64,000 nt of DNA from Natribacillus halophilus (lineage in GTDB: Bacteria; Bacillota; Bacilli; Bacillales; Marinococcaceae), in the NCBI RefSeq assembly GCF_900100185.1, contig NZ_FNEN01000002.1, forward strand, positions 146,319 to 210,318, in the 5' to 3' direction. Numbering within the stretch: the stretch's first letter is position 1; every line of letters starts with the position of its first letter. The notes under the pieces are model-generated. The model saw nothing but the letters and a program-made list of their open reading frames with translations, made no database searches and was not told where the DNA came from. This document shows positions 13,819 to 63,746 of the stretch, piece after piece. The position numbers and the translations under genes were made by a program.

Positions 13819-13885
13819 GTTAATCAGTAACCAACATGCAGGCATTTGCATGTGATTGCACTACAAACGAAGGAGGATTAGATTT

Positions 13886-14482
13886 ATGCATCTAATACCA
13901 ACAGTTATTGAACAAACGAACCGCGGAGAACGAGCCTATGACATTTATTCGCGCCTGCTGAAAGATCGCATCGTCATGCTCGGCTCAGGTATCGATGATA
14001 ACGTAGCGAACACGATTGTCGCGCAATTGCTTTTCCTGCAGGCGGAGGATCCGGACAAGGATATTTCCCTTTATATTAACAGCCCGGGAGGTTCGATTTC
14101 CGCCGGGATGGCGATCTATGATACGATGCAATATATCACCCCGAGAGTATCGACGATCTGCATCGGCATGGCTGCATCCATGGGCGCCTTCCTTCTCAAT
14201 GCAGGCGAATACGGCCAACGTTTTGCCTTGCCGAACAGTGAAATTATGATTCACCAACCGATGGGCGGCACCCAGGGGCAGGCATCTGATATTGATATTC
14301 ATGCCCGCCGCATTTTACAGATGCGTGAACGATTGAACAATATCCTGTCTGAACGCACCGGCCAACCGCTGGAAGTGATTCAACGGGATACAGATCGTGA
14401 TAATTTCATGCTCGCGCAAGAAGCCAAAGATTACGGTCTCATCGACAGCATCTTTGAAAAAAATGAAGACATCGCAAAATAA
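13886..14482 (+). CDS. clpP: ATP-dependent Clp protease proteolytic subunit
   Basis: A 198-residue serine protease that forms the tetradecameric barrel fed by ClpC, ClpX and ClpE. The triad is exactly placed: Ser98 (AASMGAF), His123 (MIHQPMGG) and Asp172 (TDRDNFM). The ATG at 13886 follows GGAGG and gives the conserved [11 protein letters not shown] start; a codon 30 bp upstream lacks a ribosome site. It is monocistronic, with a CtsR-type promoter and a strong terminator. ClpP with ClpC would normally degrade ComK, which is also encoded in this window. Confidence 0.98.
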
Positions 14483-50471: not shown

Positions 50472-50950
50472 CCAAACTCCTCCTTTCAGATGTATACTTC
50501 TCTATTCCTCTTTTTCATTCCTGCTAAAACGACAAAATTGTGTAGAAAATGTGTGGACGATTAATCGTGAAAATAACCCCGTCTTACCATGCACGAAACA
50601 GAAGCGGAACATAAGTGAATTTTACTTTATTTCATCAATCTCTCTGTTTCTCTCGGGAACATCTTTCCGCCATCCAACTTTCCATTGCCTTCTATGTGCA
50701 AAATTTGTCAAATCAATGTGCATACCTTAAAAATCGCCAGTTGGCATTAAACGAAAAATATGATTCACTACTTTTACCGGAATCACCGTATTTTTTATAT
50801 TAATTCCTGCGAATTGAGTCTTCGTTCCACCCCCTTTCTCCATATCGCCACGTTTTGAATCCCCTTAGTTAGAAACGGTGATTCCTGTACTTACAGCAAA
50901 TGTGGTACAATGTTGACACGTATGATGCTGAGGAGGAAGCGGTTGTTCAA
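50472..50950. other. Gene-free divergent region between hpf and the lipoprotein gene
   Basis: 479 bp with no supported gene. It must hold the leftward hpf and rightward lipoprotein promoters. The only clear structure is a perfect 12-bp palindrome, ACGATTAATCGT, at 50557-50568, about 90 bp upstream of hpf. A possible TACAAT -10 for the rightward gene lies at 50906-50911 without a good -35. Confidence 0.6.
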
Positions 50951-51856
50951 ATGAAAAATATAATCGGCTTCTTAACATTGAGTATAGCGTTAATATTAAC
51001 CGCCTGCAATAATGATGATGATTCGAGCGAAGAAAAAATACCCGCTGAAAACGATAAGTTCGGGGAACAGCATGACAAGACTTCCGAAAACGGCGACGAC
51101 ATCATAAACATCCTCGAGCAATCCGTCGGAGCGATGAGCGACATTGACAGCTTCGCGGTCGATATGAATACGGCACAGGAAGTCAACGTTAATGACGAGT
51201 CTTTTACCACTGAAACCGAGGCGAATACAGAAGTGACGCTTGAGCCGTTTGCCTATTATGAAGAGGCCGCCGTCGTCGATGATGAAGGCACGGAAACGAT
51301 GAATACAGAGGTTTATTTTACCGATGATGGTTTTTATACTTACGAAGCATTTTTGGATGAATGGATGATATTACCCGAAGAAGTGGAAGCAGATATCAGG
51401 ACATTGCATACGCATCAACGAAACCCTGAGCGACAATTGGAATTGCTGATGGCACAGGTGGATGTTGACAACATGTCCGCCGAAGACCATGGCGATCACT
51501 ACGCAGTCACGGTTAGCGGAGACGAAGAGGGTTTGCTGGAAGTGGCCGCGATGATGATCGACAACCTTGATGGCGGCATGGGTATGGTGGTCGAGGACAT
51601 TATGTCCCTGGTTGATGTCAATGAAATCAACTATGAGATTCTTATTGATAAGGAAACGCATTACTTTCAGGAATTCAATGCCCAGATAGATATGGATGTA
51701 ACAGTAGAAGAAGGACAAAGCGCCGCTTCACAACAAGTCATCACGACAACGTACGACGCTTTCAACGACATCGACGAGATCACCATCCCCGAAAACATAC
51801 GCGAAAACGCTGAAGAAGTTGATTTTGAACAGGAGTTGGACGGAGAAAACGAGTGA
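50951..51856 (+). CDS. DUF6612-like acidic lipoprotein
   Basis: A 301-residue predicted lipoprotein. The signal peptide ends in LTAC with lipid-anchor Cys19, followed by an acidic spacer. The body opens with ILEQSVGAMSDIDSFAVDM, the helix typical of DUF6612/LppX-like lipoproteins that may carry lipids. The C-terminus ends in a tail of acidic residues. ATG at 50951 is the only reasonable start, but GGAGG lies 14 bases upstream, which is long. It is one of three plus-strand genes in the window, inserted between hpf and the flagellar block; function unknown. Confidence 0.8.
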   Translation: MKNIIGFLTLSIALILTACNNDDDSSEEKIPAENDKFGEQHDKTSENGDDIINILEQSVGAMSDIDSFAVDMNTAQEVNVNDESFTTETEANTEVTLEPFAYYEEAAVVDDEGTETMNTEVYFTDDGFYTYEAFLDEWMILPEEVEADIRTLHTHQRNPERQLELLMAQVDVDNMSAEDHGDHYAVTVSGDEEGLLEVAAMMIDNLDGGMGMVVEDIMSLVDVNEINYEILIDKETHYFQEFNAQIDMDVTVEEGQSAASQQVITTTYDAFNDIDEITIPENIRENAEEVDFEQELDGENE

Positions 51857-55929: not shown

Positions 55930-56295
55930 TTAACCGTTCGACTCGAGAGCAATGACCGCATCCAGACGTTCACGTAAACGTCGTAATGAAGGCAGCAAAA
56001 TAAGTTCCATCATCTCTCGCGCCCGCCGGTACTGTTCCAGTTTAACCGCCACTGTTGCTTCTTCGAGTCCGCGCTTCACACGAGTGAAGCGCGCTTTTAT
56101 GTTCCCTTGGTCACGGTAGCTTCCTACTGCCAACCCGATCCCCTCTAACTGCTCATAACATATCACCGCATGATCGAGAGATTGCAATATTTGCTCCTTG
56201 TCCCCTGTTTCCAGTAAACGCAAACTTTCCGCCACCCCGTCCATTAATTCATCACTGGCACAAAGCACTCTTCTTAAAACACCGCCATTGGTCAT
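55930..56295 (-). CDS. Unknown protein at the head of the flaG-fliD operon
   Basis: A 121-residue helical protein with many Arg and Glu residues, no signal peptide and no Cys pair. Recognisable segments are LLETGDKEQILQSLDHAVICYEQLEG (about 27-52) and ARFTRVKRGLEEATVAVKLEQYRRAREM. It begins directly behind a sigma-D-type promoter and ends 21 bp before flaG, so it is probably flagellar or motility-related. I do not recognise the family. Confidence 0.75.
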   Translation of the reverse strand: MTNGGVLRRVLCASDELMDGVAESLRLLETGDKEQILQSLDHAVICYEQLEGIGLAVGSYRDQGNIKARFTRVKRGLEEATVAVKLEQYRRAREMMELILLPSLRRLRERLDAVIALESNG

Positions 56296-56391: not shown

Positions 56392-56451
56392 TTTTGGTAT
56401 AATGGCTTCAAAAGTGACCTTTTATCTATTATAATTGTATTAATACCAAAA
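56392..56451 (+). promoter_or_regulatory. comK promoter region with inverted repeat
   Basis: TTTTGGTAT (56392-56400) and ATACCAAAA (56443-56451) are perfect 9-bp inverted repeats. Each borders a TATAAT (56398-56403 and 56430-56435). Between them lies AAAAGTGACCTTTT (56410-56423), like a ComK AT-box but with six rather than five central bases. The region could carry autoregulation by ComK or control by another protein. Confidence 0.55.
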
Positions 56452-56467
56452 TAAGGAGAATAGACAT

Positions 56468-56923
56468 ATGACCCAAACAATACGAGCGACGTATCGGGTA
56501 AATGCAGAAACGATGGCCATTTTATCTGCGGAAAATGGTTCATATATTTATGAACGGGAACAGGAGATTTTTCAATGTCAGGAACGCCCACTGCAAATTA
56601 TTCGCAAATCGTGCCTGGACGGAGGGGCATCGTTCGCGGGGAGAATAGATGCAGTGCGGCATAAAACAAAACTATCAAAAAAACTGCCCATCCCCATAAA
56701 TGTGTCTGAAAATTGGTATGCTTTCCCGACAGCCGGCCTGCGGGACTACGATTGTTACTGGATCTTTTATCATCATATTGATAAAATTGAAGCGACCAAC
56801 CGTAAATGCTGTAACATTTATTTTCACGACCAACAATGGCTTCCCGTCAAAAAAAGCCTGTACACGCTGCGGACACAAATGCAACGGACAGGCTGGGTGA
56901 TGTCCCTGTTTCTCACCAGTTAA
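56468..56923 (+). CDS. comK: Competence transcription factor ComK (short form)
   Basis: A 151-residue minor-groove DNA-binding activator of DNA-uptake genes. ComK signatures are visible: PLQIIRKSCLDGGASFAGR (about 41-59), the KLPIPIN block (about 73-79), YAFPTAG (about 85-91) and YWIFYHHIDKIEAT (about 97-110). It stops shortly after the RTGWV segment and lacks the roughly 35-residue C-terminus of B. subtilis ComK, including the FMLYPK motif that binds the adaptor MecA. ATG at 56468 follows AAGGAG. It is convergent with the next gene and lies inside flagellar genes. Confidence 0.85.
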   Translation: MTQTIRATYRVNAETMAILSAENGSYIYEREQEIFQCQERPLQIIRKSCLDGGASFAGRIDAVRHKTKLSKKLPIPINVSENWYAFPTAGLRDYDCYWIFYHHIDKIEATNRKCCNIYFHDQQWLPVKKSLYTLRTQMQRTGWVMSLFLTS

Positions 56924-56924
56924 G

Positions 56925-57653
56925 CTAACCACCGCGCAGCCACTCCAGTTCGATGACTCGTTTTACGGCATGCGTGCGGTCGTTAGCCTCCAGTTTTTTC
57001 GTGAGTTGACTGACATGATTATTGACGGTTGATACCGATAAATAATCATCTTCGGCAATTTTGCGATTGCTTTTGCCTTTTAGAATAGCATCGAGCACCC
57101 GGCATTCTGAAGCGGTTAAGCGCGCATACGCTTTCGCGTAATCCAGGTATAGAGCTTCCTTATCCTCCTCGTCAATGATAAAAGGATCCCTTCCATCGTC
57201 ATCGGATTTCGTTTGGACGACTTCCACCATCTCCGCTTGTATCTGCGGGTCCACATAGGTCTTATACCCCTGTGCAGCCGAGAATTGTTGTACCATTTGC
57301 CCTGAGGACCGGGTGACTGAAAGGAAAATGTCCACTTCAGATTTAACCGCTTTCTCAAGCAAGCGGGAAACCTGCGGAGAAAGCTCTGCACATAAACGAT
57401 AAATATTGGCTAATGCATGCAAAAACCCGCTTTCCAGCAAACGGAAACTTTCATCCAGCGATAATACAATAACTTCCTCTCTATTCTCAGGCTGCTCGCG
57501 GGGTAAATGTTCATGGAATTCTGCCTGATAACCGCTCGTCTGTAAAGCTGTAAGCAAACATTCTTTCCTTCTGTTTTCGCCAAGCTGAAGCCATAAGATT
57601 GGCCCCTGCATCACGATTTTATCTCCCGAACGCATTCGGGTAGTGCTCACCAT
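56925..57653 (-). CDS. LuxR-type helix-turn-helix transcriptional regulator
   Basis: A 242-residue protein. The C-terminal LuxR/GerE domain (about 180-240) reads LTASECRVLDAILKGKSNRKIAEDD in part and SVSTVNNHVSQL. The N-terminal 170 residues form a mixed alpha/beta domain (IVLSLDESF at about 57) without the phospho-acceptor motif expected of a normal receiver, so it may be ligand-responsive or constitutive, like CsgD/VpsT relatives. ATG at 57653 is nine bases after GGAGG. Position between comK and flgL suggests a role in motility or competence choice. Confidence 0.82.
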   Translation of the reverse strand: MVSTTRMRSGDKIVMQGPILWLQLGENRRKECLLTALQTSGYQAEFHEHLPREQPENREEVIVLSLDESFRLLESGFLHALANIYRLCAELSPQVSRLLEKAVKSEVDIFLSVTRSSGQMVQQFSAAQGYKTYVDPQIQAEMVEVVQTKSDDDGRDPFIIDEEDKEALYLDYAKAYARLTASECRVLDAILKGKSNRKIAEDDYLSVSTVNNHVSQLTKKLEANDRTHAVKRVIELEWLRGG

Positions 57654-57682
57654 CAAAGGTTTCCTCCTTCATATGTACCAAT

Positions 57683-61516: not shown

Positions 61517-62215
61517 TCAACTTCGGGCTACCGTAAGTGCAGATACCTGCCCCGCGCCATGATGCAACAAGGGGATGGCCGCTTTCCGCAAGGTGGTGCC
61601 TGTCGTGTAGATATCGTCAATAAGCAATATGTGTTGACCGGTTAGACTTTTTACGTCTTCACGGACGGCAAAAGGACGAACATGTCCGCGCAAGCGACCA
61701 TGGCGGGAACGCTTGCTTTGTTTCGCTTCATCGACCCTTCTCATGAGTAAAGGTTTGTAAGCCACCGGAAGGTATTCGGCAAGGGCTGCTGCCTGATTAA
61801 AACCACGTTCCTGCAAGCGCTCTTCACTAAGCGGAATCGGCACCGGAATGCTTTTTTTAAAATACTTTCGATAGGTTTGCTTTAAGGAGTCCGCGAACAT
61901 TTTCGCGAGTTCAACATCCCCGCGATATTTATAGGCGCTGAGTACTTCCTGAAGATGTTCATCATACAAAAACAGGGAAACATTGCGCGTGAGCAAGCCG
62001 GACCAGTTTTTCGTTTTGGCCCAACGCTCACAATCGCCGCAACTTTCGGTGACCGGGAGCGGGCGACTACAGTGTACACACCAGGGAGCGGTCAACGGTC
62101 GTAATTTTTCCTGACACTCATCGCATAACATTGGCTTTTTCCATGAGAACAACGCTTCCCAACCGGCATTCGTGTTCAAGGGAGACAAACATTGCAGGCA
62201 ACGGTCATGCCTCAT
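61517..62215 (-). CDS. comFC: Competence protein ComFC, phosphoribosyltransferase-like
   Basis: A 232-residue cytoplasmic protein needed for internalising transforming DNA. Four zinc-type cysteine pairs lie in the first 65 residues (CLQC, CDEC, CVHC, CGDC), and a PRPP-binding loop LIDDIYTTGTTLR lies near the C-terminus (about 203-215). It overlaps comFA by 11 bp. The comFB gene that separates comFA and comFC in B. subtilis is absent. Confidence 0.93.
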   Translation of the reverse strand: MRHDRCLQCLSPLNTNAGWEALFSWKKPMLCDECQEKLRPLTAPWCVHCSRPLPVTESCGDCERWAKTKNWSGLLTRNVSLFLYDEHLQEVLSAYKYRGDVELAKMFADSLKQTYRKYFKKSIPVPIPLSEERLQERGFNQAAALAEYLPVAYKPLLMRRVDEAKQSKRSRHGRLRGHVRPFAVREDVKSLTGQHILLIDDIYTTGTTLRKAAIPLLHHGAGQVSALTVARS

Positions 62216-63746
62216 CTTGATGCTCCCCTCGATTCATCGCTAAAATTTGCTTTCGACAACGGTTCATGGCTTTCGTTTTGCCATAGTGGAAAAAAGTGAC
62301 GGTTCCATGGGGATCATCAGCGCTACGCCCAGCCCTGCCGGCTATTTGTACAAGCGCGGATTCAACGAACACGTCATCTTCCGCGCCAAGGACAACAACG
62401 TCGATCCCATAAATGGTGACCCCTCGCTCCAAAATGGTCGTTGTGATGAGCAGCGGCATCTCTCCATCCCGAAAACGTTTAACGATTTCTTTTCGCTCGG
62501 GGTCACTCGCGTGTACACTCACGATCGATGTTTCTTTTTTCTGTAAAATTTGGTGCAACTGCTTGGCCACCTGAACACTCGGGGCAAAAATGAGCGCCTG
62601 CCTTCCACTCGTGAGCTGTTCATCCACCCATGCGGAAAAAACAGGGCTCAAATGCTCACGCGCGAGCGCTTTTCGCCAGTTTCCAGCCCATTGAAATTCC
62701 GGAACGGGCAGGGGGTAACCGTGGAATCGACGACTCACTTTCACTACTGCCTTTTCTTTTTCACATTTTTTCCGCAAGCCTTCATCCGGTGTTGCCGTTA
62801 AATAAATGAGCACCGCCTGCTTTCGCGTCGCATTTTTGACGGCATACGCCAAGCTTTCGTCATAGCGATAAGGAAAAGCGTCCACTTCATCGATAATGGC
62901 TACATCAAAAGCATCCTGAAAACGCCGGGTTTGGTGCGTGGTGGCTACAACGAGTTGACCGTAAGCAAGGCGTTCCGGGCTGCCGCCGTATAAACTTGCC
63001 AGTGTCGTCGTCGGAAACGCTCGCCTTAAACGTGGCTCAAGCTCAAGGACGACGTCGGTTCTCGGCGTCGCTATGAGTACACGTTTGCCTTCCTCCAGCC
63101 CACGGGCAATGCCGGGAAATAACATTTCGGTTTTCCCGGCCCCACAAACCGCCCAAACTAAAAGTTTAGCGGCCTTATGTTGCATGATGGTCTCCGTAAT
63201 TCGGTCGGCTGCACGTCGTTGTAAAGGTGAAAGTTCTCCTTGCCAGGCTAATACGTCATGTCGCCTCTCTTGAGCGGAAAAGACCGGGCCTCCCCATCTG
63301 AAAAGCGGCGTGCATGTTGTCACGCGCCCCATCATGACACAGCGACGACAATACAAACAGGGGCCATTACACCACGCGCAATCATAACGGGCAAACCAAT
63401 CCTTTTTAGTATTCCCGCACCGTTGGCACTGGTGACGACTGCTTTTGCCGCGCTTAATCCCTGCTTGTAAATAAACGTAACCGCTGCGTATAAACGATTC
63501 GATTTGCGTATAAGGAAAAGGAAATTCATCGGGCAGCAACGCCCGTCCGGTCAATAATCCCTGCAGTTCGAGGTGAAGGTCGGAAAGAGGTTCGGAGGTT
63601 TCTTGAAGTGATGGCGGGGGTGGGGGATTTGTAAAGGTTGAAATCGGGGCCGGATCTGATTGGACGTTATCATGGTCTTTCACACATGCAAGCGGGAGCA
63701 TAAGGGGAGAGGGAACGTTACGGGGAGTAGCAATCACGACTTTCAT
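62205..63746 (-). CDS. comFA: Competence DNA translocation ATPase ComFA
   Basis: A 513-residue DEAD-box-type helicase or translocase that powers uptake of single-stranded DNA. A four-cysteine zinc finger (about 110-150: CQRC, CAWC, CLYCRRC) precedes the motor. Walker A is AVCGAGKTE (about 205), the DEAD-like box DEVDAF, and helicase motif VI QIAGRAGRS. ATG at 63746 has AAGGAG seven bases upstream. No ComK AT-box pair is evident upstream. Confidence 0.94.
   Translation of the reverse strand: MKVVIATPRNVPSPLMLPLACVKDHDNVQSDPAPISTFTNPPPPPSLQETSEPLSDLHLELQGLLTGRALLPDEFPFPYTQIESFIRSGYVYLQAGIKRGKSSRHQCQRCGNTKKDWFARYDCAWCNGPCLYCRRCVMMGRVTTCTPLFRWGGPVFSAQERRHDVLAWQGELSPLQRRAADRITETIMQHKAAKLLVWAVCGAGKTEMLFPGIARGLEEGKRVLIATPRTDVVLELEPRLRRAFPTTTLASLYGGSPERLAYGQLVVATTHQTRRFQDAFDVAIIDEVDAFPYRYDESLAYAVKNATRKQAVLIYLTATPDEGLRKKCEKEKAVVKVSRRFHGYPLPVPEFQWAGNWRKALAREHLSPVFSAWVDEQLTSGRQALIFAPSVQVAKQLHQILQKKETSIVSVHASDPERKEIVKRFRDGEMPLLITTTILERGVTIYGIDVVVLGAEDDVFVESALVQIAGRAGRSADDPHGTVTFFHYGKTKAMNRCRKQILAMNRGEHQDEA

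Follow-up and report, generated by a model that had tools for sequence, protein, structure and literature searches.

Genes for natural competence and for flagella lie side by side at one locus of Natribacillus halophilus, and the ComK protein encoded among the flagellar genes lacks the C-terminal tail of its B. subtilis counterpart. The locus raises the question of whether this ComK is a complete protein and, if so, what could control the DNA-uptake genes. An earlier note on the window (the whole stretch of DNA analysed, 64,000 nucleotides) had proposed that, with the MecA-binding motif FMLYPK gone, competence may be controlled at transcription instead. The ComK2-type identity of the protein, its branch, completeness and selection, the fixed slot of its gene, the losses of that gene and the sigma-H-like motifs reported here were all computed.

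The window ComK is genuine and complete, a short version of a bacterial regulator of DNA uptake that is already known. It matches the Pfam ComK family PF06338 with an E value of 2.2e-34 (118.8 bits against a cut-off of 22.3), and its residues 8-147 cover profile positions 3-146 of 152. Because nearly the whole profile is matched, the conserved domain is complete and only the part beyond it is missing. A search of NCBIfam gave no match for this protein. The gene, the sole comK found in this genome, begins with an ATG codon, and the start at 56392 given in the earlier note takes in its promoter. A structure model built from 37 aligned sequences has a mean pLDDT of 92.6 and contains 10 strands and 3 helices, the last of which stops at residue 149. 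The gene is under purifying selection, with dN/dS values of 0.05-0.17 in 10 of 11 pairs and saturation in the remaining one.

Features of the window discussed in the text, with positions counted from its first nucleotide
Feature	Positions	Strand	Basis
comK, 151 aa, short ComK2-type, complete core without C-terminal tail	56468-56923	+	Pfam, tree, model, dN/dS
LuxR-type HTH regulator, 243 aa, convergent with comK	56925-57656	-	Pfam GerE 6e-13, residues 179-232
121-aa ORF, family unknown, heading the divergent run	55930-56295	-	no Pfam match
comFC + comFA	61517-62215 + 62205-63746	-	ORFs, Pfam
clpP-like ORF	13856-14479	+	motif only
Lipoprotein-like ORF	50900-51856
TATAAT, likely -10 box of comK	56430-56435	+	in stretch conserved with four closest relatives
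Second TATAAT of the earlier note	56398-56403	+	outside conserved stretch
9-bp inverted repeat, left arm, chance-level	56392-56400	+	shuffles, relatives
9-bp inverted repeat, right arm, chance-level	56443-56451	+	shuffles, relatives
Sigma-D-like promoter of divergent flagellar operon, TAAA-N15-ACCGATAA	56336-56362	-	relatives' alignment

ComK matches were found in 24 of 29 Marinococcaceae genomes (one of these, G003, holds a broken copy); among genomes of the order outside this family, 31 of 32 had a match. Intact comK amounts to 25 copies across 23 genomes of the family. The ComK tree comprises 81 rows. Sequences identical over their last 60 residues were entered once, which removed one family copy and retained the other 24; the G003 remnant was left out. 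A short branch (97/89) holds 47 rows, the window protein and every one of the 24 family rows among them; the 34 rows on its other side consist of a long-tailed group of 24 (98/95) and 10 divergent sequences, in a tree whose end branches are long (median 0.59). The window protein carries 14 residues after the last conserved glutamine (Q137), compared with a median of 41 (22-62) in the 24 long-tailed relatives, 17 (13-34) in members of the family and 23 (14-47) in other members of the short branch. On average, tail length thus splits the two branches, though their ranges overlap.

In this branch of the ComK family a missing tail is the normal state: in an alignment of ComK from related genera, the check that the earlier note had proposed, short tails are typical of the short branch and not specific to the window. 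The note's estimate that the protein falls 35-40 residues short of B. subtilis ComK, which has 192 amino acids, is about right. The ComK2-type assignment refers to the position of the window protein among short-tailed copies in the tree, the named ComK2 proteins being likened to it by their descriptions. Short-branch ComK is the only type in Marinococcaceae, no long-branch ComK being found in the 29 genomes, and it is also the sole ComK in single representatives of five other families (G030, G033, G048, G053 and G056).

The boxes of sigma-H promoters are spaced by 11 or 12 bases. Regions upstream of competence genes were scored, out of 15, for RNAGGAWWW-N11/12-RNNGAATWW, from the published consensus RNAGGAWWW / RNNGAATWW (PMC8510167, accessible text). 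Sites scoring at least 14 lie upstream of comGA at 15 of 28 family loci (0.39 expected, shuffle maximum 4) and at 16 of 30 loci from other families, L213-L242 (0.60 expected, shuffle maximum 4). With a threshold of at least 13, the counts rise to 22 of 28 (3.85 expected) and 23 of 30 (5.62 expected). The family set leaves out G025, in which the gene is broken; in the other-family set one genome's match was left out, and the start of the match replaced a missing anchor motif at five loci. A single distance from the gene is shared by 20 of the 28 family comG sites. The site in the window genome, GAAGGAGAA-N11-GTCGAATAG, scores 13/15 with P 0.075, and alone is not significant. G004 has a score of 12/15 at the usual place, and no comG site was found in five g11 genomes or in G011, though comK is kept in them.

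At comC, the window genome carries GCAGGAAAA-N11-GTCGAATAC, with a score of 14/15. Sites of at least 14 occur upstream of comC at 9 of 29 family loci (0.28 expected, shuffle maximum 2), and these are confined to genera g1 (that of the window genome), g4, g7 and g10, where 9 of 10 genomes have one; elsewhere the count is 0 of 19. The tenth genome of this clade, G025, scores 13/15 at the aligned place. In a quick tree built from the LuxR-type plus ComGA proteins, without bootstrap, a branch with SH-aLRT 100 separates these four genera from the rest, with long branches nearby.

The comEA gene served as a control and is ruled out as a sigma-H target: none of 27 upstream regions reaches 14, 3 reach 13 against 1.73 expected, and the window genome, with the start of the gene corrected, scores 11/15 (P 0.72). 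Another factor must therefore serve comEA. Of the two boxes of the motif, the -35 box looks like a ribosome-binding site. The other box and the spacing lack this likeness, and ribosome-binding sites are also included in the comEA control regions. The sigH gene was found in all 29 family genomes, in 28 of them over the cut-off.

Binding-site candidates for ComK itself were also sought at comG. K-boxes (P<=0.05) are at chance level, with 1 of 28 in the family and 3 of 30 in other families, in a scan that lacks a verified positive control. An A/T box with at most one mismatch lies just upstream of the sigma-H-type comG site at 17 of 36 loci with ComK versus 1 of 6 without it, which shows no clear tie to the presence of ComK, after 16 of the 58 loci had been left out for sigma-H sites scoring below 13. 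The window's clade keeps an A/T-rich dyad beside the comG -35 box.

Competence operons in S. aureus are reportedly under sigma-H control. In L. monocytogenes, sigma-H drives comG, comE and coiA (accessible text of PMC4754846). The literature searched, mostly without subscription journals, yielded no statement on sigma-H control of competence across Bacillales at large. What is new here is a sigma-H-like motif at comG across many genomes of the family and order, and at comC too in the clade of the window genome. The suggestion that competence is controlled at transcription is plausible, but by way of the sigma-H-like promoters of two operons located beyond the window, comG and comC.

Loss of comK is not accompanied by loss of the DNA-uptake genes. 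Counts that include genomes without intact comK give ComGA over the cut-off in 28 of 29 family genomes (partial in G025), ComGF matches in all 29 (27 over the cut-off), the ComC N-terminal domain over the cut-off in all 29, and a strong ComEA match in 27 of 29 (E 1e-31 or better, below the model's strict cut-off), the exceptions being G022, where the gene is cut by the ends of the record, and G025, where it is split. The comK gene is absent from all four g7 genomes, with no match between the LuxR-type gene that adjoins comK in relatives and the next matched gene, 117-200 bases away. In g4 it is broken (G003, pieces in different frames, where a sequencing error is possible). By these patterns, the window's clade has probably seen two or more losses of comK, while comG and comC were kept. 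Outside this clade, comK was not found in G018, which, like the rest of the family outside g1, g4, g7 and g10, has no comC site. The losses fit a regulator that could be dispensed with after both comG and comC had come under sigma-H, an order of events that we infer.

Our favoured reading, to which we give an even chance of being right, is that the window protein is a ComK2-type DNA-binding core that tunes sigma-H-driven competence promoters, more likely downwards, and that it is dispensable in its clade. It would be the DNA-binding core without the tail on which comG activation by B. subtilis ComK depends and which carries the MecA degron of that protein, and it would bind A/T-rich sites at competence promoters transcribed by sigma-H. 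There it would tune their output, with a decrease likelier than an increase, as for the tailless ComK2 proteins of B. cereus and S. aureus. Because sigma-H-like promoters would serve comG and, in this clade, comC, ComK would be dispensable; in sister genera its gene would have been broken or deleted with no loss of those for DNA uptake. We infer sigma-H use, ComK binding at the promoters and repression. A repressor is the more likely direction by analogy with three published cases, as described in the accessible parts of the papers: B. subtilis ComK shortened by its last 25 residues still binds DNA but fails to activate comG (PMC3128618), B. cereus ComK2, with 22 residues missing, reduced comG in the presence of overexpressed B. 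subtilis ComK (PMC3128618), and S. aureus ComK2 acts as a repressor of comG when oxygen is strongly limiting (PMC12491500).

A somewhat unlikely alternative is that the short ComK still activates competence without the tail, for instance by aiding sigma-H polymerase or via a site unlike the B. subtilis K-box. Such an activator would suit the sole ComK type of a family in which the gene is under purifying selection, and it could account for comEA, which has no sigma-H-like site. The A/T boxes at 17 of 36 sigma-H-type comG promoters with ComK, and the dyad kept beside the comG -35 box in the window's clade, are likewise what an activator might use. However, the B. subtilis protein without its last 25 residues binds without activating comG (accessible text of PMC3128618 and PMC3536758), genomes without comK still keep their com genes, and K-boxes are not enriched.

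The neighbourhood of comK bears on a further alternative. To the left, the divergent 121-aa ORF heads a flaG-fliD-fliS run; to the right lie the LuxR-type gene, flgL, flgK, flgN and flgM, followed by comFC and comFA. FlaG, FlgM and ComFA/FC-type domains were identified by Pfam, and fliS, fliD, flgL, flgK and flgN were named by inspection and position. The description of a tailless ComK among flagellar genes is therefore borne out by Pfam, tail length and neighbours, and clpP and comFA/comFC are indeed seen in the same window, clpP as a clpP-like ORF recognised by motif only. In all 23 family genomes with an intact copy in the slot (the window plus 22 family neighbourhoods), comK lies beside the LuxR-type gene and points towards it, and flgL follows. 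The G003 slot contains a comK remnant, and among 35 neighbourhoods from other families the slot was seen once (G053). A tailless ComK was already known; the new points are that the short ComK is the family's only type and that it occupies one fixed slot.

Several other features of this region were observed. The stop codon of the LuxR-type gene adjoins that of comK, and the LuxR-type gene is present in all 29 family genomes, including those without comK, so its co-loss with comK was not seen. Its HTH is conserved and its N-terminal part is variable, without a Pfam match; a fold prediction from 4 sequences reached a pLDDT of 42.7 and was not used. The 121-aa ORF has homologues in relatives and opens the divergent flagellar run in the window's clade. 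The lipoprotein-like ORF lies between hpf and the flagellar run, at the same place in several relatives. Two g3 genomes (G012 and G019; loci L056 and L057) have an additional, ordinary ComK2-type gene outside the flagellar slot, and these second genes are closest in the tree to a copy from another family.

Upstream of comK, the TAAA-N15-ACCGATAA element fits the sigma-D flagellar promoter consensus, and the four closest relatives keep TAAA-N15-(A/G)CCGATAA on the other strand, about 100 bp upstream. This conserved, divergent sigma-D-like promoter and the slot fixed between flagellar operons in 23 of 23 genomes could suggest that ComK mainly regulates the adjacent flagellar or surface genes, its link to competence being secondary. 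We consider this improbable, as comK has been lost where the flagellar genes were kept, the same cluster includes comFC and comFA, and ComK family members of known role act on competence genes (accessible text of PMC3128618 and PMC12491500).

The promoter region of comK was also the basis of the proposal that loss of the MecA degron shifted control to an operator formed by a 9-bp inverted repeat. The repeat and the two TATAAT boxes do exist, the repeat next to the -10 boxes, and this much of the proposal stands. The operator role is rejected: an arm of at least 9 bp arose in 11% of 500 exact dinucleotide shuffles (P 0.11), and neither arm was found around the comK start in any of 22 relatives. 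K-boxes (P<=0.05) upstream of comK do not exceed chance in the family: they were found in 0 of 23 family regions, or in 2 of 23 when the region was widened past the longest-ORF start, and in 0 of 24 regions upstream of long-branch comK with either definition; the scan, which lacks a verified positive control, may be too strict.

The premise of that proposal fares no better. FMLYPK is indeed missing from the window ComK, but its absence is not distinctive, the exact motif occurring in none of the 81 tree rows, and hence in none of the 24 long-tailed relatives, 3 of which have a loose match. Full-length MecA is present in all 29 family genomes, including the window genome, which rules out loss of MecA as the cause of the missing degron. 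Because no long-tailed relative has the exact motif and MecA is kept throughout, the absence of FMLYPK says little. In the accessible text of two papers, the MecA signals listed are FMLYPK... in ComK and IILYPR in ComS (PMC8138137), and ComK of B. coagulans and 'many Bacillus species' is noted to lack a conserved MecA region (PMC3536758). With MecA kept, the motif missing from long-tailed ComK as well, and the repeat at chance level, a transfer of control to this repeat is very hard to credit.

Finally, a decaying or mis-assembled comK deserves almost no credence: a broken copy does occur in one relative (G003), but independent relatives share the same end of the gene, dN/dS is well under 1, and the model is complete and confident. 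The frameshift hiding a longer C-terminus that the earlier note had considered, like any truncation by the assembly, is excluded by the same evidence; the protein has an identical end point in four close relatives, and the stop of the convergent gene follows directly, which together leave no hidden longer tail.

The fold of the window ComK may offer a further clue to how such a core contacts DNA. A sequence search found no solved ComK structure. When the 1000 best chains from Foldseek were compared with the ComK model once more, the six top entries were all LytTR domains, with Z scores of 6.6-8.0, and the next entry among those chains scores 4.8. They are 3d6w (Z 8.0, rmsd 4.0, 99 aligned), ComE of S. 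pneumoniae (4cbv; 7.7, 3.8, 102), AgrA (3bs1; 7.2), 4xqn (6.9), 4g4k (6.8) and 4xqj (6.6), although the tool warns that Z scores up to about 8 can reflect a common arrangement. The best Foldseek match, again 3d6w, has an E value of 6.5e-3, and none reaches 0.001 or better.

Profile comparison aligns the C-terminal half of ComK (residues 95-131) with 26 LytTR domains of the same family. The scores are 23.1 for both branches, 23.0 for the short branch, 17.7 for the long branch alone and 20.9 for a larger set, compared with a maximum of 18.4 for 100 column-shuffled larger sets and 10.7-15.7 for two other families; the HHalign probability for the ComK-LytTR pair is only 1-10% (8% for the larger set). 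These comparisons are suggestive of a ComK that resembles LytTR domains more than any other solved fold. The resemblance is unreported in the literature searched: no such link was found in the accessible parts of papers containing both words, and the word LytTR is absent from PMC12491500. If true, it would provide a structural model for the contact between ComK and DNA.

A broader proposal, tentative and open to considerable doubt, joins these observations. In many Bacillales families, comG would be transcribed from a sigma-H promoter, as would comC in the window's clade, and ComK would be a LytTR-like DNA-binding domain, which would give the competence regulators ComK of Bacillus and ComE of pneumococcus a common fold. 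The B. subtilis circuit of ComK and K-boxes would then be a special case, and ComK2 the bare domain without the activation tail. The take-over of comC by sigma-H would have freed the tailless ComK for repeated loss. Control as in B. subtilis, by ComK, K-box and MecA, may not be the general rule in the order, and sigma-H may be a common driver, as has been reported in Listeria and Staphylococcus.

The window ComK can be compared with several known systems. It shares the PF06338 domain with B. subtilis ComK, which differs by its long tail with a MecA degron (PMC8138137) and by its K-boxes, neither of which was found for the window protein. Structurally, the LytTR domains of ComE and AgrA resemble the ComK model, with no family-level sequence match. 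The comG operons of Listeria monocytogenes and, reportedly, S. aureus share the AAGGA / GAAT boxes with comG of the family. The sigma-H targets of Listeria further include comEA and coiA (accessible text of PMC4754846), whereas here the motif is found at comC and not at comEA.

The closest likenesses are with the tailless proteins, as described in the accessible parts of two papers. B. cereus ComK2 (BC5250), like the window ComK, has the ComK core and a missing tail (22 residues there); B. cereus also has a long ComK1, whereas Marinococcaceae has no long-branch ComK, a comparison made by description (PMC3128618). S. aureus ComK2 is likewise short, without the extra C-terminal helix of ComK1, and its model contains 3 helices and 9 strands, compared with 3 helices and 10 strands in the window ComK; S. 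aureus also has ComK1, and the partner SA2107 is described there only from S. aureus (PMC12491500). Since a tailless protein is the sole ComK here, the need of the tail for competence becomes directly testable. As a complete member of a short ComK type that is already known, the window ComK does not represent a new kind of system, but it is useful as an experiment of nature.
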